Shown: positions 97 through 23,887 of the stretch, one piece after another
How positions within the stretch are numbered: position 1 is the first letter of the stretch
Layout of the letters: every line of letters begins with the position of its first letter
Assembly: GCA_002308815.1 (NCBI GenBank)
Contig: DBVX01000061.1
Span: 1 to 26,059 of the forward strand
Length of the DNA stretch: 26,059 nt
Reading direction: 5' to 3'
Source of the DNA: Bacteroidales bacterium UBA1253
GTDB taxonomy: Bacteria > Bacteroidota > Bacteroidia > Bacteroidales > Paludibacteraceae
The notes under the pieces: generated by a model
What the model was told of the DNA's origin: nothing
Seen by the model: the letters and a program-made list of their open reading frames with translations, nothing else
Database searches by the model: none
Program-made: the position numbers and the translations under genes

Positions 97-2064
97 TTAG
101 TCAAGACGCTGGCCCTGGGCGGTGTAAGTCTTGCCGTTGCGCTCGATGAGGAGGATGCCGTTGCGGATAGTCTTCTGTGTCTGGCCGCTTTGCGCATCGG
201 ATGAAATCGTGTTAATGGCTGTTTCTTCACTTGGAACACATTCGATATGTTTGAAATTACCCCATTCATTATGCAGGTCGTAATCATCAAAATTCTCGCA
301 GGGTACATACAGATATGCGTTGTAATTTGCAAATGTTTTGGATTCTATGTCAGGCGGCGTTACGGCGTGGCAGTAGATACGTTTAATAGCCGAGCAACCA
401 TCAAAAGCATAGTTCCCGATGGTTGTAACACTCCGAGGGATAAGGACTGAAGTAAAGCTGCTGCCATTAATAAATGCACTATGGTTAATATTTGTTACGC
501 CGTCAGGGATGACCAATTCAGTTATCTCGTTGCCGTCCAAGAAAAGGTGCTTGGCATAATAAAGCGGGTTCGCTGTTGTACTACGAAAATAAATCCTGCA
601 CCATGCGGCAAGATCGGGTATATGTACAGAAGTTAAACTATTGCACTCATAGAAAGCCCCATATTCAATGCTTGTTATACTACTTAGAATCGTTACAGAA
701 GTCAGATTTTTACAGCCATTGAAAGCCTCGTCTCCAATCCATTTTGTTCCCTCTCTAATGGTATAAGACGATAATGTTTTATCTACCGCTTCAACCAAAT
801 ATGAATCAGCATAACGGATATTGTCTATTACGGGCAAACTGCTGCACCCTATAAAAGCATATTCTCCAATATTTGTAACACTATTTGGAATTTTTATGGA
901 GGTCAGATTGCTGCATTGATAAAAAGCCTTATCTCCAATGCTCGTAACGCTGTTTGGAATCTCTATGGAAGTCAGACCGCGGCATTGACAAAAAGCACTT
1001 TCTCCAATGCTCGTGACGCTTTTAGGAAGTACGATAGATGCTACCTTAAACATCCCCTCACACAATCCGTCCGGGACAACCTTAACTCCATCTCCAAATG
1101 TAAAAGACTCTATTTGAGAACTAATGTAGGAAAATGGGGATATATGATTTTCATACCAACCATCCCAAAAATCCGATTCGAAATTTTCTGCATTCCACTC
1201 TATGGCTATTATAGAGGAGCATCCGCTGAATACATTCGTTCCGATATGGGAAATATTTTGAGGAATGGTGACAGATGTAAGCAAACGACAATTACAAAAT
1301 GCCTTATCTCCAATAGATGTTACGCCGGTTGAAATACTGACAGATGTCAAGCCTGTACAACCAAAGAAAGCATATTCTCCAATACTTGTGACATTGTTGG
1401 GGATGGCGACGGATGTCAGTCCCGATAAGTCTTCACACAAGCTAGCCGGTATAGTTTCCACTTCCTCTCCGAAGGTAAAAGTGGATATATTTTGAAGATT
1501 ATGAAACGGCGGATAATACCCGTTATCGGATCCGATAGCACAGTTTTTCGCATTCCAATGAACCGTAGTCAGAGACATGCATTTTTGGAAGGTACCTCCA
1601 GCACCTATCGTGGTTACCGTTTCAGGAATAGATACTTCTATCAGAGATTCACATCCAAAAAACGCTCCCAATCCGATGCTTGTCACACTATTAGGGATAG
1701 TAACAAAAGTCAGACTTGTACAATTGGCGAAAGCCCAGTCTCCGATGCTTGTGACGCTGTTGGGAATGGTTATGGAGGTCAAACTGTTGCAATAAGCGAA
1801 AGCATAGCTTCCAATGCTTGTGACACCATCTGAAATGACGACGGTTTTAATAGAACTGCTATAGGAATACCACGGGGTATTAGTTTTATCTTCACCAATA
1901 TAGGTATAATTCGTCATTGCTCCGGTGCCGGAGATGGTTAGAACACCTGTTTCGGTGTCAAGAGTCCATGTAAGGTTTTCGCCGCAGGTGCCGCTGTAGG
2001 TCTCGGCGGATAGGGACAAACTGAATATGAACATCAGTCCTGCCATAATAAACTTGTGTTTCAT
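97..2064 (-). CDS. BspA-like leucine-rich-repeat surface protein, 655 aa
   Basis: An exported adhesin-type protein of the BspA/LRR_5 family. It starts with a signal peptide (MKHKFIMAGLMFIFSLSLSA), followed by a short beta segment (residues about 20-55) with the pattern 'GENLTWTLD...GVLTISGTG' common in these proteins. About a dozen repeats of roughly 23 residues follow, with the core 'SVTSIGxxAFxxCxxLTSVxIP'. The last residues form a tail (NGILLIERNGKTYTAQGQ) like those of four other proteins in this window and like the start of a T9SS sorting signal. The family is known for binding matrix proteins and other bacteria; the ligand here is unknown. The gene is AT-richer than the core operon. It has 506 bp of upstream sequence with no clear TAnnTTTG promoter. 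Short antisense open frames inside it are shadows of the repeats. Confidence 0.9.
   Translation of the reverse strand: MKHKFIMAGLMFIFSLSLSAETYSGTCGENLTWTLDTETGVLTISGTGAMTNYTYIGEDKTNTPWYSYSSSIKTVVISDGVTSIGSYAFAYCNSLTSITIPNSVTSIGDWAFANCTSLTFVTIPNSVTSIGLGAFFGCESLIEVSIPETVTTIGAGGTFQKCMSLTTVHWNAKNCAIGSDNGYYPPFHNLQNISTFTFGEEVETIPASLCEDLSGLTSVAIPNNVTSIGEYAFFGCTGLTSVSISTGVTSIGDKAFCNCRLLTSVTIPQNISHIGTNVFSGCSSIIAIEWNAENFESDFWDGWYENHISPFSYISSQIESFTFGDGVKVVPDGLCEGMFKVASIVLPKSVTSIGESAFCQCRGLTSIEIPNSVTSIGDKAFYQCSNLTSIKIPNSVTNIGEYAFIGCSSLPVIDNIRYADSYLVEAVDKTLSSYTIREGTKWIGDEAFNGCKNLTSVTILSSITSIEYGAFYECNSLTSVHIPDLAAWCRIYFRSTTANPLYYAKHLFLDGNEITELVIPDGVTNINHSAFINGSSFTSVLIPRSVTTIGNYAFDGCSAIKRIYCHAVTPPDIESKTFANYNAYLYVPCENFDDYDLHNEWGNFKHIECVPSEETAINTISSDAQSGQTQKTIRNGILLIERNGKTYTAQGQRLD
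840..1840 (-). repeat. Tandem ~69-bp LRR-encoding DNA repeats
   Basis: Within the BspA-like gene the DNA itself is repetitive. Units of about 69 bp contain recurring words such as 'ccaatgcttgtgac' followed by 'ggaat' and 'atggaggtcag', clearest at 840-1040, 1300-1420 and 1660-1840. Each encodes one 23-residue LRR_5 repeat. Near-identity between neighbouring units makes loss or gain of repeats by recombination plausible. Confidence 0.7.
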
Positions 2065-2491
2065 AGTGATGTTTTTTTAGTTAATCGTTTTTTGTTATCA
2101 ATTGAATATCTTAAAATTTAGATATTGTTCTTTTAGGTCGGTTTTCTCCGGATTTCGCAACGGGACGGAAGAATTGATAGACTTTTGAAATCTGGATTCA
2201 TTTGTTAATAGCAGCTGAAGGGAAAAAGTAACGCTGTTTTTTCAAAAAAATGTCGGCATGCAGAAAAAAAGGTTTTCTAATAGACAAAAGCAAAGCGTGA
2301 ATGTTATCCACGCTTATTCTCCAAATAGAGGTTCCGGAAAATGACCCTGTCACAAGAATAAACAATAACGTCCACGCCGATATGTACGTATTGCACTAAC
2401 ACAAGTGCATTTAGATACATATCCGAGAACATCTATTGCGCCATCTTGTCTTGGGTGACGAAATTTTCCGGATTTCTACTTACCAAAACAA
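2065..2491. other. Non-coding region with several inverted repeats
   Basis: No credible gene is seen in this AT-rich stretch between the cassette array and the BspA-like gene. It holds dyad symmetries: AATATCT/AGATATT (2105-2126); AAGCGTG/CACGCTT (2293-2315), which on the minus strand is followed by a T-rich run and could terminate transcription leaving the array; a pair of 10-bp inverted repeats TCCGGAAAAT (2333-2342 and 2463-2472) bounding 140 bp; and inside that an imperfect hairpin, GATATGTA...TGCACT with its complement (about 2379-2422). The BspA-like promoter must lie near 2070-2300, but I see no clear consensus. Confidence 0.5.
2293..2315 (-). terminator. Possible terminator of the cassette array
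   Basis: A 7-bp perfect stem (AAGCGTG/CACGCTT) with a 9-nt loop. Read on the minus strand it is followed by TTGCTTTTGTC, a moderately T-rich tail. It lies about 255 bp past the PIN-toxin stop codon and before the BspA-like gene. Its assignment as a terminator is an inference from shape and position. Confidence 0.3.
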
Positions 2492-2570
2492 GCGTCAATA
2501 AACGCCTTTATATGTCCTTGCTGTTTAACGTCGGCAAGCGACGACCGCCTTTACGCTCGCGGTGAAGCGG
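2492..2570 (-). repeat. Cassette repeat R1 (divergent short copy)
   Basis: The fourth, most diverged copy of the element that follows each toxin-antitoxin unit. The left arm GCGTcaaTAAAC (2492-2503) and right arm GTTTAACGT (2523-2531) match the other copies, including the 3-nt bulge 'caa' and the following GCCTTT. The interior is only 19 nt instead of about 47, and the outer segment 'tggagaggggacgg' is replaced by a different sequence that contains its own dyad (CCGC...GCGG, about 2544-2570). It ends directly at the stop codon of the PIN toxin. Confidence 0.65.
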
Positions 2571-2993
2571 TTATTTATAGTTTACAATCAAATCCAAGCC
2601 TTGATTGCGATAAAAAGCAAACAATCTATCACTGGAGATAAGCGGCATCCGTTCCGTCAAAGCATGTGAGATAATCAGATGATCAGACGGATCAGTGTGC
2701 CCTTGCGCATCGTTAGTAGTCAAGTGTGCAAATGTGCGCATGTGCTCCTCGTGAATAGGCAATACTTCTATAAAGTATTCATTCATGACAGAATCAATAA
2801 TATCTTCGGGCGTTCTCCATCGTTTTGCCCAAAGCCCTTTGCGGCGATATGCGACTACCAGCTCTTTGATAGATTCCATACTCATACACAAGATATTGTC
2901 CGGATCCTGGATAATAGCCTGCACATCAGCATTCAGCAACTCGGGGTCGGTTGCCAAATACACAAAGATATTAGTGTCAAGGAGATAACGCAT
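2571..2993 (-). CDS. PIN-domain ribonuclease toxin (VapC-like), 140 aa
   Basis: A small PIN-domain protein, probably the toxin of a type II toxin-antitoxin pair. Members of this fold are metal-dependent RNases that typically cut tRNA or rRNA. The acidic metal-binding residues are in the expected places: Asp6 in LLDTNIF, Glu40/Glu44 in the MESIKEL segment, Asp101/Asp104 in TDPSDHLI, and Asp122 in ISSD. The length of 140 aa is typical. Its start codon overlaps the stop of the upstream 41-aa gene by one base (TAATG), which implies translational coupling and supports this start. R1 follows directly. The target and the degree of toxicity cannot be judged from sequence. Confidence 0.88.
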   Translation of the reverse strand: MRYLLDTNIFVYLATDPELLNADVQAIIQDPDNILCMSMESIKELVVAYRRKGLWAKRWRTPEDIIDSVMNEYFIEVLPIHEEHMRTFAHLTTNDAQGHTDPSDHLIISHALTERMPLISSDRLFAFYRNQGLDLIVNYK

Positions 2994-3118
2994 TAAAGGA
3001 ACAGCGTTGCATCATTAACAACAACACTCCCTTTCAGCCTCATTGCTGCTTCCCATGTTCTGCTGATTGCTTCTTTCAGCACATTGGGCTTCTCCTGTTT
3101 TGTTGTTTGTTCTGCCAT
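2993..3118 (-). CDS. Small antitoxin candidate, 41 aa, coupled to the PIN toxin
   Basis: A short frame starts at ATG 3118 and ends in TAA sharing one base with the PIN start. The product begins MAEQTTKQEKPNVLKEAISR and ends with SVVVNDATLFL. It has a charged N-terminal half, a possible amphipathic helix (VLKEAISRTWEAAMRLKG) and a hydrophobic tail. A Bacteroidota promoter sits about 40 bp upstream, so this is the first gene of the unit. I do not recognise the family. The function as antitoxin is inferred from position, size and coupling. It is shorter than most VapB proteins and may lack a DNA-binding domain, so autoregulation is uncertain. Confidence 0.7.
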   Translation of the reverse strand: MAEQTTKQEKPNVLKEAISRTWEAAMRLKGSVVVNDATLFL

Positions 3119-3157
3119 GTCAATACGGTTTATTTTTACTCTTTGCAACTTTGGCGG

Positions 3158-3189
3158 CAAAGGTACTGCTTGTTTTCAATTCCTGCAAA
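3158..3189 (-). promoter_or_regulatory. Bacteroidota promoter for the PIN toxin-antitoxin unit
   Basis: On the minus strand, TTTG (3189-3186), a 20-bp spacer and TACCTTTG (3165-3158) match the Bacteroidota -33/-7 consensus exactly. The first start codon is 40 bp downstream. Confidence 0.8.
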
Positions 3190-3220
3190 TATATCTGTAA
3201 AAACAGATGCGTCACGGTGT

Positions 3221-3306
3221 CAACGTCAATAAACGCCTTTGCTGTAACTGCTTTTTTACGTTGCCAGCCTCAACGCTCTCTGTTTAACGTCGTGGAGAGG
3301 GGACGG
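3221..3306 (-). repeat. Cassette repeat R2
   Basis: One of three nearly identical copies. The arms are ACGTcaaTAAAC (3223-3234) and GTTTAACGT (3282-3290). They can pair as a 9-bp stem with a 3-nt bulge. The interior holds a small hairpin CGTTG-ccagcct-CAACG. The outer segment 'gtggagaggggacgg' ends 18 bp before the RelE-like stop codon. Confidence 0.8.
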
Positions 3307-3324
3307 TATGATATCAGATATTGG

Positions 3325-3636
3325 TTACTTCAATTTGCCGGCTTGTTTTTTCGGTTCGCGGCGGGTATCCCAGAAAGCAGCAATATGGATGCTATCGCCC
3401 TTTATGTAATAGACTAACTTGCTTAAACGATGAATAACAATACTCCTGTATGCTATCTGATGTCGTGCGAATAATGAATCAAGATTGCCTATCTCGGGGG
3501 ATGTCTCCAACAAATAGGAGATATGTTCCACCTCGGACATAAACTTTGAGCGGATGTCTTCACCAAACTCGTTGAGAATATATTCTTCAACTTGGCGCAG
3601 CCCCCTTTCCGCACGATTTGACCAAAGTACCTTCAT
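3325..3636 (-). CDS. RelE/ParE superfamily toxin, 103 aa
   Basis: A type II toxin of the RelE/ParE fold. The N-terminus (MKVLWSNRAERGLRQVEEYI) gives the family's first strand and paired helices. The segment SYLLETSPEIGN and the strands around IAYRSIVIHRLSKLVYYIKGD and IHIAAFWDTRREP match the ParE/RelE beta-sheet and the usual C-terminal 'xxFWDxRRxP' ending. Family members inhibit either translation (RelE) or gyrase (ParE); the sequence does not decide which. It starts 3 bp after the upstream antitoxin stop, as expected for a toxin encoded second. Repeat R2 lies just downstream. Confidence 0.88.
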   Translation of the reverse strand: MKVLWSNRAERGLRQVEEYILNEFGEDIRSKFMSEVEHISYLLETSPEIGNLDSLFARHQIAYRSIVIHRLSKLVYYIKGDSIHIAAFWDTRREPKKQAGKLK

Positions 3637-3639
3637 ACC

Positions 3640-3867
3640 TCAAATATGATGAAAGACCTGGTCATTGGTCTTGTACCTGCCCGCAGCGAAATCGGCTTCC
3701 GACTCCGCCAGCATGGTATCAATTTCAGCCAACGTGTAAGGCTCTATTCGCTCCTCCTTGTCCGCATATTCAACAAGATGCGCGGCAAGCCAACGTTTAT
3801 TGGCGGCTGTGAGGTCAAATGTGGCAAGTATCTGGTCAAAGACTCCCTGCAAGGCAACTGTACTCAT
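3640..3867 (-). CDS. Antitoxin partner of the RelE/ParE-like toxin, 75 aa
   Basis: A small acidic protein in front of the RelE/ParE-like gene, separated from it by 3 bp. The C-terminal part (LAEIDTMLAESEADFAAGRY, then KTNDQVFHHI) is the toxin-wrapping tail seen in many Bacteroidota antitoxins of RelE-type pairs, where 'E.D...G....S.EVF' motifs are common. The N-terminal half is helical without an obvious ribbon-helix-helix or HTH, so a DNA-binding role is not shown. The promoter lies about 70 bp upstream, at 3939-3971. Confidence 0.8.
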   Translation of the reverse strand: MSTVALQGVFDQILATFDLTAANKRWLAAHLVEYADKEERIEPYTLAEIDTMLAESEADFAAGRYKTNDQVFHHI

Positions 3868-3931
3868 ATTGTGTTCTCCTGTCGGTTAGTGATTTGTTAA
3901 ATCTGCACGGAATTCCCAAGCGGGATGATTA

Positions 3932-3972
3932 ACGGCGGCAAAGGTACGAAAGAAATGAGGATATATGCAAAT
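3932..3972 (-). promoter_or_regulatory. Promoter of the RelE-type unit; 41-bp block identical to 5852-5892
   Basis: On the minus strand, TTTG (3971-3968), a 21-bp spacer and TACCTTTG (3946-3939). The whole 41-bp block, including the normally unconserved spacer, is identical to the promoter of the KilA-N unit 1920 bp away. This means duplication or recombination rather than chance consensus. Confidence 0.85.
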
Positions 3973-3978
3973 GTTATT

Positions 3979-4006
3979 AGTTGAAAGTTGATAGTTGAAA
4001 GTTGAG
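3979..4006. repeat. Four tandem heptamers, AGTTGAA type
   Basis: Units AGTTGAA, AGTTGAT, AGTTGAA, AGTTGAG in a row. A closely similar heptamer run occurs at 16210-16237. Such TTGAAAG-type arrays are seen between genes in many Bacteroidota genomes; the function is unknown to me. Confidence 0.75.
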
Positions 4007-4027
4007 AGAAGTTTGGGAGTTCTGCCT

Positions 4028-4122
4028 GTCGCAAACAATGTCAATAAACGCCTTTTATGTAACTGCTTTTTTACGCTGCCAGCCTCAACGCTCACAGGTT
4101 TAACGTCATGGAGAGGGGACGG
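4028..4122 (-). repeat. Cassette repeat R3
   Basis: 95 bp. The arms are ATGTcaaTAAAC (4038-4049) and GTTTAACGT (4098-4106). The interior and the outer 'atggagaggggacgg' segment are almost the same as in R4. Both R3 and R4 also share the flank 'gtcgcaaacaa', absent from R2. It ends 6 bp before the stop codon of the DUF2442-like gene. Confidence 0.85.
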
Positions 4123-4128
4123 TATTGG

Positions 4129-4377
4129 TTATAATGCTACACCATATTCATATATGGCATCGCTTGGCAAGTCAATCCGGTCATTCCAATAGATGCAAGT
4201 GCGACTCGCATCCAACTGCGCATTCTCAAACAAACCATACTCTGTTTCAAGATCATGAAAAGCAGGCAACGTTTTAATGTCCTCTGCTACATCATAACGC
4301 ACCTGCCGCCCATCGTCAAACGAAACGAGCAACTGGTAATCCGCAAGCGGCTGGTATGACTTGATACGCGGTATCAT
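4129..4377 (-). CDS. DUF2442-like protein, 82 aa
   Basis: A small protein of the DUF2442 type: MIPRIKSYQPLADYQLLVSF, then 'DDGRQVRYDVAEDI' and a C-terminal 'LDASRTCIYWNDRIDLPSDA' box, the most conserved part of the family. I place the start at 4377 because this ATG precedes the family's usual first strand; an earlier in-frame ATG at 4434 would overlap the end of the upstream DUF4160 gene. The gap to that gene is then 11 bp. DUF2442 genes commonly sit next to DUF4160 genes in a toxin-antitoxin-like arrangement; the biochemical role is not established here. Confidence 0.82.
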   Translation of the reverse strand: MIPRIKSYQPLADYQLLVSFDDGRQVRYDVAEDIKTLPAFHDLETEYGLFENAQLDASRTCIYWNDRIDLPSDAIYEYGVAL

Positions 4378-4388
4378 TGATTTGGATG

Positions 4389-4646
4389 TTAATCTTTTAA
4401 TGGTGGGAGTTTTATAATTCTCTGCGTGTTCCACATTTCTTGCAGTTCATCTTTATGCTCACTTAACCACTCTTTCACCATCTTTTGAGCTCGGTTAGGC
4501 AGGTCTCCTTCTGTCATTTCAAATGTGTTGATGTCAAACACGCCCATATATTCTTCATAAAGCGCGTGTATGTGTGCAGGCTCGTGTTCTTTGGGCTTAA
4601 AGAACATCTTAATGATGATTCCGTAAAAACGGCTTACTTCCGGCAT
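4389..4646 (-). CDS. DUF4160-like protein, 85 aa
   Basis: The sequence MPEVSRFYGIIIKMFFKPKE followed by 'HEPAHIHALYEEYMGVFDI' is diagnostic of DUF4160: the start with 'RFYGI.I.MF' and the histidine pair in 'PAHIHA'. The C-terminal helix (AQKMVKEWLSEHKDELQEMW) fits too. It is the first gene of a two-gene unit with the DUF2442-like gene, usually interpreted as a putative toxin-antitoxin pair. The two histidines could bind metal or be catalytic, but this is speculation. Its promoter is 37 bp upstream. Confidence 0.87.
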   Translation of the reverse strand: MPEVSRFYGIIIKMFFKPKEHEPAHIHALYEEYMGVFDINTFEMTEGDLPNRAQKMVKEWLSEHKDELQEMWNTQRIIKLPPLKD

Positions 4647-4682
4647 AAGTATCTGTTTTTCTATTTTGTTTTACTTCGTTGG

Positions 4683-4714
4683 CAAAAGTACGGCATCTTA
4701 ATCACTTGCGCAAA
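4683..4714 (-). promoter_or_regulatory. Bacteroidota promoter for the DUF4160-DUF2442 unit
   Basis: On the minus strand, TTTG (4714-4711), a 20-bp spacer and TACTTTTG (4690-4683), an exact fit to TTTG-N20-TAnnTTTG. Unlike the promoters at 3932 and 5852, its spacer is unrelated. Confidence 0.78.
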
Positions 4715-4766
4715 TAATTACACAAAATTCATCAATAGCGTCTAACGGTTATGAAGATTCGAGTTA

Positions 4767-4860
4767 GTCGCAAACAACGTCAATAAACGCCTTTTATGTA
4801 ACTGCTTTTTTACGTTGCCAGCCTCAACGCTCTCAGTTTAACGTCATGGAGAGGGGACGG
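4767..4860 (-). repeat. Cassette repeat R4
   Basis: 94 bp. The arms are ACGTcaaTAAAC (4777-4788) and GTTTAACGT (4836-4844), with the inner hairpin CGTTG/CAACG. It is nearly identical to R3 over its whole length. It ends 8 bp before the stop codon of the KilA-N gene. Confidence 0.85.
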
Positions 4861-4868
4861 CTATTAAT

Positions 4869-5729
4869 TTATGCCATCAGTTGGCTATCGGGTAACTGAG
4901 GAAGACCTGCAATATCCAAGGCTGAAAGCGTTTGCAGTTGCTTGATCGCCATAGCGCGAAGTGCCTGCAAACGAACTGTCTGCGGTTGCTTTTGCTCAAT
5001 GAGCAATGCATTGTACGATTCCATATTCGCTAATACAAGCAATTGTTGTAATGTCGCGTAATCGCGGATATTGCCTTTCTTGCCGGCATTAAGTTTTCTC
5101 CATTGCGCCGCAGTCATACCAAACAATGCCACATTGAGAACATCGGCTTCATCAGCATAGACATAGGACTGTTGCTCTTTTGTCAAATCCGGCGGCAATA
5201 AATTCTGCTGAATAGCGTCCGTGTGTACCCGGTAGTTGAGTTTGGAAATCTCCCTGTTCAAGTTCCAAGACAAAGACAACCGTGAGTTCTCGTCAAACTT
5301 GAGACGCCGGTAATCTTTCATCAGATAGAGTTTGAACTCCGCAGAAATCCAAGATGCGAATTCCATCGCGATATCACTATGCGCGTACGTACCGCCGCTA
5401 TACCGTCCGGCTTTGGTCGCAATACCGATAGCACCTGTCATTTCAATCCATTTGGAAGGAGTCATGACAAAACGGTTGAGGCCGGATTCCGTTCTAAACG
5501 TGTCGAATTGCACACGGTTAAAATCAGGATTGTGCAAACTCTCCCAAAGCCCGAGAAACTCAATCGTATTGCGGTTTCGCATCCAGTTCTGAATGGCAAA
5601 ACGCGGGTCATCACTATTACGGAAACGGGCGATATCCGTCAAAGAGATGTATTCATTGCGGTAATCCTCGGTATAAATACCCACATCTATACCTTGTACA
5701 TGCAATATGTCCGACTTGAGTTTGCCCAT
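4869..5729 (-). CDS. KilA-N domain protein, 286 aa
   Basis: A KilA-N type protein. Residues about 5-125 carry the domain: MGKLKSDILHVQGIDVGIYT, then 'NEYISLTDIARFRN...WMRNRNTIEFLGLWE', a 'TPSKWIEMTGAIGIATKAGRYSGGTYAHSDIAMEFASWIS' core, and 'FKLYLMKDYRRLK'. KilA-N is a DNA-binding fold of phages and large DNA viruses, also found in stand-alone bacterial genes. The second half (about 150-286) is helical with 'MTAAQWRKLN...GNIRDYATLQQLLVLANMES', typical of Bacteroidota versions. The start at 5729 is chosen because the domain begins there; the longer frame upstream has no homology signal and would run into the permease gene. It leaves a 5' untranslated region of about 120 bp. The role as defence or addiction factor is unproven. 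Confidence 0.85.
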   Translation of the reverse strand: MGKLKSDILHVQGIDVGIYTEDYRNEYISLTDIARFRNSDDPRFAIQNWMRNRNTIEFLGLWESLHNPDFNRVQFDTFRTESGLNRFVMTPSKWIEMTGAIGIATKAGRYSGGTYAHSDIAMEFASWISAEFKLYLMKDYRRLKFDENSRLSLSWNLNREISKLNYRVHTDAIQQNLLPPDLTKEQQSYVYADEADVLNVALFGMTAAQWRKLNAGKKGNIRDYATLQQLLVLANMESYNALLIEQKQPQTVRLQALRAMAIKQLQTLSALDIAGLPQLPDSQLMA

Positions 5730-5851
5730 AAGCGGTAATCTTGACTGGTTCAATATTGTTTTTGAACGACCTAATTGTGTCAATACTTTCTCTGGGTTAA
5801 GCACGTCAATGGCTTGCTGCGGAGCATAATACGAATAGAGTATTTTGGAAT

Positions 5852-5892
5852 ACGGCGGCAAAGGTACGAAAGAAATGAGGATATATGCAAAT
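5852..5892 (-). promoter_or_regulatory. Promoter of the KilA-N unit; duplicate of 3932-3972
   Basis: On the minus strand, TTTG (5891-5888), 21 bp, TACCTTTG (5866-5859). Forty-one bases are identical to the RelE-unit promoter, and identity stops sharply on both sides. It marks the upstream boundary of the cassette region; the next 109 bp to the permease stop contain no gene. Confidence 0.83.
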
Positions 5893-21157: not shown

Positions 21158-23887
21158 ATGAAGAAGAATTTATTTGTAGCAGCACTCATGTTAGTGGCGG
21201 GACTGCTGCAGGCGCAGAACCAACAGAAGATTGACGGCGTCTGGTATCTTCTCGACAGTGAAAACAAGACCGCAACCGTGACGTTCTGTCCGACGGACGA
21301 ATCCGAAGGCTTTGTGGCTGAAAGCGGCTACATGGGCAAACTCAACATTCCCGCAACAGTCTCAGGCGAGGCAACGGGTTATATGCCCTACGACGTGATT
21401 GCCATAGGCGACAGCGCCTTTGCCAAATGCCCATATCTGAAGTCTGTCATTATCCCCTCCTCTGTCAAGACGCTGGGTCTGTATCTGACGGCAGAGTCAT
21501 ACCTCAACGAATACGAAAAAGGCATTGAGGCGATTACCATCTCCGACGGCAGCGAACCTATCGAGTTCACTTACAGGCAGGGCGACACGGGAGAGGAGTT
21601 CTCCTTCTCCGAGATTGCACCGACCTGCACCTACCTCTATCTCGGCCGTAATGTCACCGTGAAGACGGATGTGGATTGGGACATACCTATCTTCCATACA
21701 TGGAGCAGCGTTGAAGAGGTTGTCTTCGGCGAAGGCTTCACCGAAGTGCCCCTTGCTTTCTGCCCCTTCAGCCGCAAGCTGAGGAGCATCCAAATCAACT
21801 CGGACAACGTGCTTGAACCCGGTCCGCGCATGTTCGGCTTCCTCGACGAGGACAAGCCGCAGCCCGACGCAAAAGCAATCACCCTCTATGTACCTTACGG
21901 CATGAAGGAGACGTATGCCGCACATGAATACTGGAGCCGCTTCACCATCGAGGAGATGGACGAGGCACGGCGCTACGGCATCCGATATGCGGATGATTAT
22001 TTCGACTTCTTTATCAACGGACTCTACTACAAGCGCACCAGCCGTGGTGTCAGTGTGGTTATCCCGCAGGTATGGTACATCAACCACGACGGCTCCTATG
22101 TAAGCCAGTGGAGCAGCGAGTTCCCCTACAAGCAGTCTGAAATCACTATTCCCGAATCAATCACTCTCTATCTTAAAGATTATACCACCTATTCCCTTAC
22201 GCCGAAGGATGGCTATGAGAAAACCACCCTTACCGTGGCAGGCATTGGCGACTACTGCTTCCGTGGTGCACGCAACCTTGAGCAACTGACTATCCCGAAT
22301 ACTGTAGCAGAAGTAGGAATGGAAGCCTTTGAAGATGCCCTCAACCTCAAGTCGCTTGACATACCCGAATCCGTTATCCACACTGGCTGGCTCGCTTTCG
22401 CACGCGCTGGCTTCGAGGAGATTGTCATTCCCGCTTCCTGCAGCAAGTGGGAGTTCAATCAGGGCACAGCCGTCTTTCAGGAGTGCCTTAACCTGCGCAA
22501 AGTCACATTTGCAAAGGGCACTACCCGCATTCCTGACCGCATCTTCTTTGGCTGCACGGCACTGCGCACCGTCATCATCCCCGACGAGGTGACAGAAATA
22601 GGAGCAGGGGCTTTCGCAGGTTGCAGCGCGCTCAGCTATCTGCAACTGCCCGCAAGCCTTGAGAAAATTTACAACCGCACCTTCCGGGGCTGCCCGTTGC
22701 GCGAACTGGAGATTCCGGCTGCTGTCAAGGAAATAGAGCCGGCGGCTTTCCTTGCCACTGTGTTCACAAAACTCAAAGTGGACAAGAACAACACCGTGTT
22801 CGACAGCCGCGACAACTGCAATGCTGTCATACGCACAAAGGATAATACGCTTCTGGCTGCCTGCAACGGCACTTTCATTCCCGAAACAGTGGACTCTATA
22901 GCTGAAGAGGCCTTTACTGAACTCTACGGACTGCGCTCCGTCACTCTGCCAAAGAACCTGAAGAAGATTGCATATGGAGCGTTTATGAACTGCGACAACC
23001 TCGCTGTCATCACTTCACATATCACCAACCCCGCTGGCATTCTTGCTGAAAACGGCTTCTCTTCATGGAGCGATGAAGACGCACCTTGCAACAAGGCGGT
23101 CCTCTATGTGCCCGCAGGCACCAAAGCCTTGTATGAGGCTGACACCGAGTGGAAAAACTTCAAGAACATCATTGAAATGGAAGGCGGGAACAAACCCGCT
23201 GACGTGGCTGATCTGAAGCCTGTTACTGAGGACGGAGCCGCCGATTTCAGCAAACTGGATGGCAAAGACCTCTCCAACGCACTTATCGGGAACATATACG
23301 TCACCTGCGACCTCGGCGACGGATATAACAGTACGGACAAAGCCCTTGTCTTCAACACCGTAGTGGATCAGCTCATGCTGGACAACATCGCCGCCCACGA
23401 AGGCAATATGGATGTGCTGCGCAACAACTTCAGCGGCATCGTGCTGGAGATACCCGCAGGCAAGGGTACTGTCACCATTGAGGCGAAAGTGACCGGCAAG
23501 CGCGCATTAGCGGCTTATATCTCGGGACACGAAGGCACTACCGTCAATGAGGCACCCGCGACAAAGACCGAGATTGACATACCATTTGACGAAGAGGAGA
23601 AGGCATTTGTCTATATCTACGGCATTTATGATGACGGCGAAGCGCTGCCCGCACCGCAGCGTGTGGCGTCGAAGATACAGCGCGCTCCCGCAGCCACCGA
23701 GGATGACGACCTTACGGCAGGAACGGTCAATATCTACAGCGCAAAGTGGACTATCAGCGAGCTAACCGATGTGGAGCAGATCGAAGCAGATGCAACGACC
23801 GCCGTGCAGAAGGTGGTCCGTGACGGTCAAATCCTTATCCTCCGCGACGGCAAAATCTTCACTCCCGCCGGTGTGGAAGTGAAATAA
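21158..23887 (+). CDS. BspA-like leucine-rich-repeat surface protein, 909 aa
   Basis: Intact paralogue of the interrupted gene, starting 32 bp after it. Signal peptide MKKNLFVAALMLVAGLLQAQ. LRR_5-type repeats occur at about 70-170 and more regularly at about 340-610 ('GDYCFRGARNLEQLTIPNTV', 'IFFGCTALRTVIIPDEVTEI', 'GAFAGCSALSYLQLPASLEK'). Two 'LYVPxGxKxxYxAxxxWxxF' modules (about 246-265 and 650-670) close each LRR block, as is usual in these proteins. The C-terminal about 200 residues form a beta domain shared with both neighbours, ending in the tail QILILRDGKIFTPAGVEVK. Its last about 45 bp are almost identical in DNA to those of the upstream gene. Predicted to be surface-exposed; the ligand is unknown. 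Confidence 0.9.
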   Translation: MKKNLFVAALMLVAGLLQAQNQQKIDGVWYLLDSENKTATVTFCPTDESEGFVAESGYMGKLNIPATVSGEATGYMPYDVIAIGDSAFAKCPYLKSVIIPSSVKTLGLYLTAESYLNEYEKGIEAITISDGSEPIEFTYRQGDTGEEFSFSEIAPTCTYLYLGRNVTVKTDVDWDIPIFHTWSSVEEVVFGEGFTEVPLAFCPFSRKLRSIQINSDNVLEPGPRMFGFLDEDKPQPDAKAITLYVPYGMKETYAAHEYWSRFTIEEMDEARRYGIRYADDYFDFFINGLYYKRTSRGVSVVIPQVWYINHDGSYVSQWSSEFPYKQSEITIPESITLYLKDYTTYSLTPKDGYEKTTLTVAGIGDYCFRGARNLEQLTIPNTVAEVGMEAFEDALNLKSLDIPESVIHTGWLAFARAGFEEIVIPASCSKWEFNQGTAVFQECLNLRKVTFAKGTTRIPDRIFFGCTALRTVIIPDEVTEIGAGAFAGCSALSYLQLPASLEKIYNRTFRGCPLRELEIPAAVKEIEPAAFLATVFTKLKVDKNNTVFDSRDNCNAVIRTKDNTLLAACNGTFIPETVDSIAEEAFTELYGLRSVTLPKNLKKIAYGAFMNCDNLAVITSHITNPAGILAENGFSSWSDEDAPCNKAVLYVPAGTKALYEADTEWKNFKNIIEMEGGNKPADVADLKPVTEDGAADFSKLDGKDLSNALIGNIYVTCDLGDGYNSTDKALVFNTVVDQLMLDNIAAHEGNMDVLRNNFSGIVLEIPAGKGTVTIEAKVTGKRALAAYISGHEGTTVNEAPATKTEIDIPFDEEEKAFVYIYGIYDDGEALPAPQRVASKIQRAPAATEDDDLTAGTVNIYSAKWTISELTDVEQIEADATTAVQKVVRDGQILILRDGKIFTPAGVEVK

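Follow-up and report, generated by a model that had tools for sequence, protein, structure and literature searches.

A large structured RNA of Bacteroidales, probably a leader of surface-protein genes, and the toxin-antitoxin and phage-defence genes associated with it

The stretch of DNA studied here comprises 26,059 nucleotides of contig DBVX01000061.1 from Bacteroidales bacterium UBA1253 (Paludibacteraceae) and is referred to as the window. Between positions 2,492 and 5,892 it carries four units of one or two small genes, each followed by a copy of a common repeat (R4 to R1, collectively R), which a preliminary description had taken for an integron-like cassette array. We find that R, made up of H-type pseudoknots and a strand S1, forms with near certainty the 5′ domain of a more extensive structured RNA, which we name H. 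The idea that R is a stand-alone recombination site was not borne out, as covariation, the covariance model and the pseudoknots of the leader assign it to a structured RNA. The work has uncovered a widespread RNA and, with it, an unusual setting for defence genes, but no new integron of the kind proposed.

With about 240 nt, strong covariation, several copies per genome and enrichment before genes of exported proteins, H suggests that surface proteins of Bacteroidales are subject to a layer of control not described so far. Judging from its predicted anatomy, it probably switches such genes on and off in gut bacteria. Toxin-antitoxin and phage-defence genes moreover settle in leaders with H, no integrase being visible, which makes these leaders a defined spot to study gene movement; integron-like array anatomy, it appears, can come from repeats of an RNA domain. 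We regard the explanation as a whole, in which R is the 5′ domain of a Bacteroidales leader RNA that acts as an attenuator and holds defence genes, as fairly probable.

Structure of the H RNA

At many sites in the window's own genome and in relatives, the 3′ end of R leads into a conserved hairpin of ~200 nt that closes in an intrinsic terminator. The preliminary description had overlooked that the element runs on, past R1, into this long hairpin. Within the window H is complete solely after R1, where it extends beyond the previously described span and stands ahead of a BspA-like gene. Its parts are as follows.

2286..2315, minus strand: intrinsic terminator hairpin and T-run, 3′ end of H (fold of the window tail, -12.0 kcal/mol)
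2321..2506, minus strand: complete H including S1 (cmsearch 60.9 bits, E=2.9e-14, model positions 1-199 of 199)
2355..2378, minus strand: S3, putative antiterminator strand complementary to the terminator tail (duplex -26.0 versus hairpin -12.0 kcal/mol)
2427..2438, minus strand: S2, which forms a pseudoknotted helix with S1 (type B copy in the window, its pairing read from the sequence)
2493..2506, minus strand: S1 core GGCGTTTATTGACG, 3′ end of R1 (covariance model, S1 pattern)
2517..2543, minus strand: R1 pseudoknot, stem CGTCG/CGACG, loop CTTGC pairing with GCAAG (pseudoknot search)

RNAalifold, unprompted, joined the S3 strand with the terminator arm and S1 with S2. On the mixed alignment, in which the two types of H were misaligned, it missed helices P1-P3; a structure was afterwards built by hand from a single type. 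In 31 copies of type A, 99.2% of 1413 cells are paired in this structure, compared with 35-39% in slid controls. Both sides of P1 and P3 are altered in many of the 31 copies with pairing kept, and S1 (GGCGTTTATTG) pairs with S2 as a pseudoknot, 99.4% of the cells being paired. G-U pairs are fully conserved in these copies, which favours RNA over single-stranded DNA. A wider alignment that includes other families of Bacteroidales reveals the same helices, with 94.0% of cells paired (slid controls 31-44%). Two-sided changes occur at 33 of its 35 pairs; the 40 distinct rows are 39 copies and one reverse-strand echo, and the alignment was fitted to this structure. Ahead of S1, H-type pseudoknots (stem, loop, TAAAA-like spacer, loop-pairing strand) were detected at 40 of 144 sites and in 137 of 2880 shuffles.

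Some copies deviate. In L031, L036 and L037 H is shortened, its 3′ half apparently deleted, and a BspA-like or another signal-peptide-bearing gene follows directly. In L044 a RelE unit (3064-3785 and downstream) is succeeded by a divergent H-like hairpin (cf. L025) that the model did not report in L044. L002 and L128 are nearly identical for ~75 bp past the terminator and differ on both strands of P1 and P3, as if entire H units had been exchanged.

Distribution of H and comparison with catalogued RNAs

The H model (E ≤ 1e-4) matched 57 of 61 genomes sampled from the genus, with at most 22 matches each. At E ≤ 0.001, matches were obtained in 25 of 295 genomes, representing 17 of 183 genera, sampled from Bacteroidales; a class-level sample contained 3 genomes with an H match among 247, all three in the same order. 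The H-bearing relatives are for the most part Paludibacteraceae and other Bacteroidales of the guts of ruminants and horses. The genomes G082 and G074 reveal 22 and 20 H matches, respectively.

Rfam 15 yielded no family for the H copies at the gathering score, in the subset of loci scanned, and none at E up to 1 on seven H loci. At E up to 5, the H of the window gave a chance-level microRNA match alone (E 3.8, 15.2 bits versus 70). A known Rfam family for H was ruled out on this basis, since nothing rose above chance in the stretches scanned. Bacteroidales-1 (RF01693), which appears among the candidate RNAs of PMC2864571, is like H a structured RNA of Bacteroidales, but its sequence is different and it sits elsewhere in the same genomes (11 of 22 genomes have a single copy over the cut-off); it was rejected as an identity for H. 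No description of an H-like RNA was found in a literature search that was not exhaustive. H is apparently a large, uncatalogued RNA.

Two catalogued RNAs were encountered near H. The DUF805b motif (RF02914) follows H in 4 of 20 loci, at a distance of 65-220 nt in L002 (676-710), L041 (1223-1257) and L015 (1988-2022) and of ~1 kb in L010 (284-318). A SAM-II riboswitch is located at L181:2016-2075, near the H locus of another genus.

Genes downstream of H and predicted attenuation

The counts on strand, signal peptides, S3 and promoter boxes refer to 88 hand-picked H loci, 66 of them drawn from 99 model matches and 22 from other genera. Reverse-strand echoes, truncated copies and repeat records of one contig were omitted from the 99 matches, and further matches (e.g., L091, L092, L099, L102, L104) were omitted without a set rule. 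The search that gave the 99 matches covered 94 sources, namely the window and L043-L135, with L136-L173 outside. A pattern scan of genome contigs had provided at least 118 stretches, including a few from unrelated genomes; on five of the pattern-matched unrelated stretches (L073, L079, L084, L108, L131) the H model gave no match.

Counting genes of at least 100 aa, 83 of 87 loci have the gene after H in the orientation of H; of the adjacent gene pairs elsewhere in these loci, 374 of 501 are co-oriented (binomial p 3e-7). The corresponding number for upstream neighbours more than 130 nt from H is 41 of 65. The gap between the modelled end of H and the gene has a median of 115 nt. In 65 loci the gene starts no more than 300 nt from H, and in these we searched for TAnnTTTG, which we take to be the -7 box motif of the Bacteroidetes type. 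This box, the one type considered, occurs upstream of H in 44 loci (antisense 11) and between H and the gene in 2 (antisense 7). A signal-peptide-like N-terminus is displayed by 52 of the 83 genes after H and by 167 of 498 others, according to a crude hydrophobicity rule with the start chosen freely and applied equally to both sets. H also precedes related genes in different genomes.

In all 88 copies, S3 is complementary to the entire terminator tail, both arms included, and the S3:tail duplex is stronger than the terminator hairpin. The duplex averages -27.2 kcal/mol for cognate and -21.3 kcal/mol for non-cognate pairs, and none of 5000 permutations was equally good. The tail contains a loosely defined T-run in 85 of 88 copies and folds below -6 kcal/mol in 78. 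H thus shows the predicted anatomy of a terminator-antiterminator switch. Taken together, the next gene on the same strand, the box that is placed upstream of H and is rare in the gap, and the complementarity of S3 to the terminator suggest a cis attenuator, and we consider it likely that H acts as one. The RNA family, its structure, the arrangement of the units and the exchange of cargo are demonstrated here; attenuation in cells and a signal that governs it are what we infer from these features. With attenuators and riboswitch-type leaders H shares an own promoter, a structured leader, an intrinsic terminator, a competing strand and a same-strand gene downstream. It differs from them in the pseudoknotted S1:S2, in an S3 that spans the whole terminator, in the protein genes lodged inside the leader, and in that no Rfam 15 family covers it above chance in the stretches scanned.

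According to the model that we propose, the leader would start at its own promoter, pass one or more H-type pseudoknots, S1 and the long hairpin (P1-P3, S2, S3), and reach the intrinsic terminator. It stands ahead of genes for exported proteins more often than usual. The RNA would either be terminated or fold into the S3:tail helix, in which case RNA polymerase would read into the downstream gene. In some leaders of Paludibacteraceae, toxin/antitoxin or phage-defence genes are placed between the promoter and the last pseudoknot-S1-H, each inserted gene bringing a pseudoknot-S1 copy at its 3′ end such that H keeps an S1 after the insertion. The window is an unusually long case: the leader of its BspA-like gene contains a stack of four genes, with H complete only distally. 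Units are probably gained, lost and swapped by recombination between R/S1 repeats, through general or some other machinery.

The array in the window

That the four units lie on the same strand and are each followed by one copy of the common element, R4 to R1, was described previously and is indeed seen in the sequence. The features of the array and its downstream flank are listed by position.

97..2064, minus strand: gene of a BspA-like leucine-rich-repeat surface protein, downstream of H (Pfam LRR_5, E=1.8e-104; a similar gene follows H in L063)
2571..2993, minus strand: PIN-domain toxin gene (Pfam PIN, 3.8e-12)
2993-3118, minus strand: 41-aa open reading frame (ORF) upstream of the PIN gene (no Pfam or NCBIfam match)
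3158..3165, minus strand: -7 box, promoter of the PIN unit (motif)
3221..3306, minus strand: R2, two pseudoknots and S1, without H (repeat comparison; pseudoknots partly read from the sequence)
3325..3636, minus strand: RelE/ParE-type toxin gene (Pfam ParE_toxin, 7e-05)
3640..3867, minus strand: small gene upstream of the RelE/ParE toxin, putative antitoxin (no Pfam/NCBIfam match; role suggested by position)
3932..3972, minus strand: promoter of the RelE unit (41 bp identical to 5852-5892; -7 box)
4028..4126, minus strand: R3, pseudoknots and S1, then a short H stump (repeat match; 25.9 bits at 4024-4052)
4129..4377, minus strand: DUF2442 gene (Pfam, 2.1e-07)
4389..4646, minus strand: DUF4160 gene, DhiT-like toxin (Pfam, 5.3e-21; NF048015 88.3 bits, under the cut-off of 100)
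4683..4690, minus strand: -7 box, promoter of the DUF4160 unit (motif)
4753..4865, minus strand: R4, two pseudoknots and S1 (4778-4791), then ~25 nt of truncated H (40.5 bits)
4869..5855, minus strand: KilA-N protein gene, phage-defence candidate PDC-S22, start codon uncertain (Pfam, 2.8e-16; PADLOC 421 bits)
5852..5892, minus strand: promoter of the KilA-N unit (41-bp repeat; -7 box)

The repeats R4 (4765-4865), R3 (4028-4126) and R2 (3221-3306) share at least 95% mutual identity over 86-101 bp. R1 has only ~45 bp in common with them (2486-2531, 85%), its upstream half being different. Measured from the 86-bp repeat blocks, R4, R3 and R2 start, as had been noted, shortly downstream of stop codons (~7-18 bp), and the common part of R1 begins ~39 bp past the PIN stop. 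R4 and R3 hold mere stumps of the H hairpin (40.5 and 25.9 bits by the covariance model), and the H sequence after R4, R3 and R2 ends at three different places. Nine matches to R were found in the window's genome at E ≤ 0.001, including the four of the window and, among the others, a 99% copy on a different contig; the repeat is therefore not due to chance. By BLAST, R matches occur in 27 of 61 genomes of relatives.

The predicted promoter ahead of each unit is likewise supported, with -7 boxes at 5859-5866, 4683-4690, 3939-3946 and 3158-3165; two extra boxes lie at 3186-3193 and 2963-2970. The 41 bp of identity between the promoters of the RelE and KilA-N units suggest a recent duplication or exchange at the promoter. 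The G+C content of the array is indeed low, 43.9% versus 57-58% in three core genes on one flank; the BspA gene on the other flank has 42.5%, so low G+C is not special to the array.

The earlier assignment of the cargo holds for the KilA-N, DUF4160, DUF2442, ParE-type and PIN genes, all confirmed by Pfam, and stays putative for the two small antitoxins, which have no Pfam or NCBIfam match.

Cargo genes at H loci and exchange of units

Of 81 H loci with an upstream neighbour, 16 have S1 preceded at no more than 130 nt by the end of a gene of at least 100 aa, always on the same strand. In the loci examined, most copies hence do not lie at gene ends, an outcome that the preliminary description had named as refuting its own reading. 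Twelve of the 16 genes belong to toxin/antitoxin or defence families: KilA-N, HEPN (two), MazF-like, HepT, YhcG nuclease, PIN (two), DUF2442 (counted as the partner of a DhiT-like toxin), Fic, ParE-type and RhuM. The other four encode an HTH/ATPase-like protein, a thioredoxin-like protein and two proteins without family. Shorter or overlapping genes at the same positions include YoeB, DUF4325, DUF2442 and PIN, and PADLOC defence models also match YhcG, RhuM and Fic. The 22 loci from other genera contain none of the 16.

Cargo content varies between species, in agreement with the preliminary description. The window and L063 share the end PIN-R1-H-BspA (93% over 1012 bp) and differ upstream, which indicates a common distal unit and variable upstream units. 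The RelE unit recurs in L043, from another species, with 96% identity that stops exactly after TTGACG, followed by different DNA with another H. Other units recurring elsewhere are KilA-N (96%), PIN (93%) and DUF4160-DUF2442 (82%), and the KilA-N, RelE and PIN units (93-96%) have different neighbours in other genomes. In L055 and L142 a RhuM gene starts directly after TTGACG, and the leaders before it differ; other leaders are cut at further points. The two-pseudoknot R of the cargo units is near-identical in several species, and the H behind it differs. R2 of the window is a mosaic whose 3′ part is the resident variant shared with L063; the exchange that brought RelE therefore lies within R and not at one fixed point.

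We infer that units move by general recombination at R/S1. This is the simplest account and the leading one, yet also the weakest step of our explanation, and from the comparison of these loci we give it about an even chance. Some genomic islands integrate in tRNA or tmRNA genes and restore them. The units resemble these islands in that the insert carries a copy of an RNA-gene part that would otherwise be separated; they differ in targeting a leader RNA, in being small genes and in bringing no integrase along.

Alternative explanations

As a whole the integron reading failed; parts of it stood. Cassette-like units, varying cargo, the absence of a standard attC and the lack of an integrase were all found, whereas R as a recombination site and its position at gene ends were not upheld. 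Integrons and CALIN arrays share with the array units of gene plus element in the same orientation, toxin-antitoxin and defence cargo, and content that varies by species; here no integrase was found, the element belongs to a structured RNA, the majority of the copies examined lie off gene ends, and exchange is not confined to one point. Integron attC sites fold as a hairpin of R″/L″/L′/R′ boxes. A canonical attC was rejected, as R1-R4 as DNA fold no better than shuffles on either strand, and no RYYYAAC...GTTRRRY frame was seen in them by eye. The integron integrase model TIGR02249 was over the cut-off in 0 of 41 genomes, which are incomplete metagenome-assembled genomes (the window's own is 69% complete), and weaker matches to tyrosine recombinases occur in all 41. 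Four XerC/D-like queries had no relatives among 686 ORFs of 24 R-bearing loci, most with cargo (in L145, L114, L113 and L045 a cargo gene beside R was not established). In the control these queries gave 16 of 16 self and cross matches; serine and distant recombinases lay outside their scope. The Pfam tally of 98 neighbour ORFs contained no recombinase, transposase or reverse transcriptase among the 25 of 70 families listed; the 98 were taken from 126 after 18 window ORFs and 10 overlapping or doubtful ones had been omitted by hand, and 10 window ORFs were scanned separately. An integrase nearby was rejected, given that the searches revealed none over the cut-off in the genomes, none among the neighbour families listed and no XerC/D-like relative in the loci. 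Origins from retrons, bridge RNAs or group II introns were dropped for lack of support, reverse transcriptases not having been searched by name.

A related possibility is that the pseudoknot-S1 domain is the site of a dedicated recombinase, encoded elsewhere or lost, which would insert a circular gene-R unit after TTGACG at a promoter-R-S1|H platform. The exact stop of the RelE homology in L043, the RhuM start codons directly after TTGACG behind different leaders in L055 and L142, and the near-constant R of cargo units ahead of differing H would fit such a system. We nevertheless think it unlikely: the XerC/D-like recombinases are present as everywhere and none of the four has a relative at the 24 loci, no genome exceeds the integrase cut-off, the H stumps after S1 vary in length, and the mosaic R2 places an exchange inside R. 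Moreover, pairs of S1 sites within 2 kb are found, among the matches listed, on the window contig only (the pattern was exact and overlooks variants like R2; tandem S1 sites also occur in L063 and L113). It is similarly doubtful that a cassette platform has evolved on a regulatory RNA, with the pseudoknot-S1 domain doubling as recombination site and each insertion rebuilding the switch. If true, defence and toxin genes could be stacked before a surface-protein gene, one RNA governing both together.

Our first idea was that H acts in trans as an independent non-coding RNA, equipped with its own promoter and terminator, and that the downstream genes are bystanders. This would account for the promoter box and terminator that bracket H, for its strong structure and for several copies per genome. 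It was rejected on the strand of the downstream genes (83 of 87) and the few promoter boxes in the gap; an S3 complementary to the whole terminator speaks against it as well, and we rate it as quite improbable. Least of all do we expect R to be a MITE or another small element spread by a transposase. It is multi-copy, mostly intergenic and dispersed, but the copies examined are covarying RNAs bracketed by promoter box and terminator, related genes follow H in different genomes, and the single 41-bp repeat seen is a promoter copy.

Several observations weigh against the leader and its exchange as we describe them. A pseudoknot of the form searched is absent from 104 of 144 S1 sites, and the 99 model matches include 11 weaker echoes from the opposite strand. 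The distance from the modelled end of H to the gene start exceeds 110 nt for 42 of the 83 same-strand genes and 300 nt for 19, and 31 of the 83 have no signal-peptide-like start. A competing S3:P4 helix shows little cognate preference (8.05 versus 7.72, permutation p 0.0045), and S3:tail could be a fixed architectural helix and not a switch. No ligand or protein partner of H was found. The RhuM gene of L142 stands behind S1, but neither R nor H is seen after it, and no single-site mechanism predicts an H that is cut at three places after R4, R3 and R2.

Further observations

A second BspA-like leucine-rich-repeat gene is located on the plus strand of the window (21158-23257), where the model reported no H ahead of it. 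Ahead of one H, in L198, there is a DDE transposase gene. In L114 a gene with a polyvalent-protein kinase domain (3239-3799) lies 259 nt ahead of an H copy.

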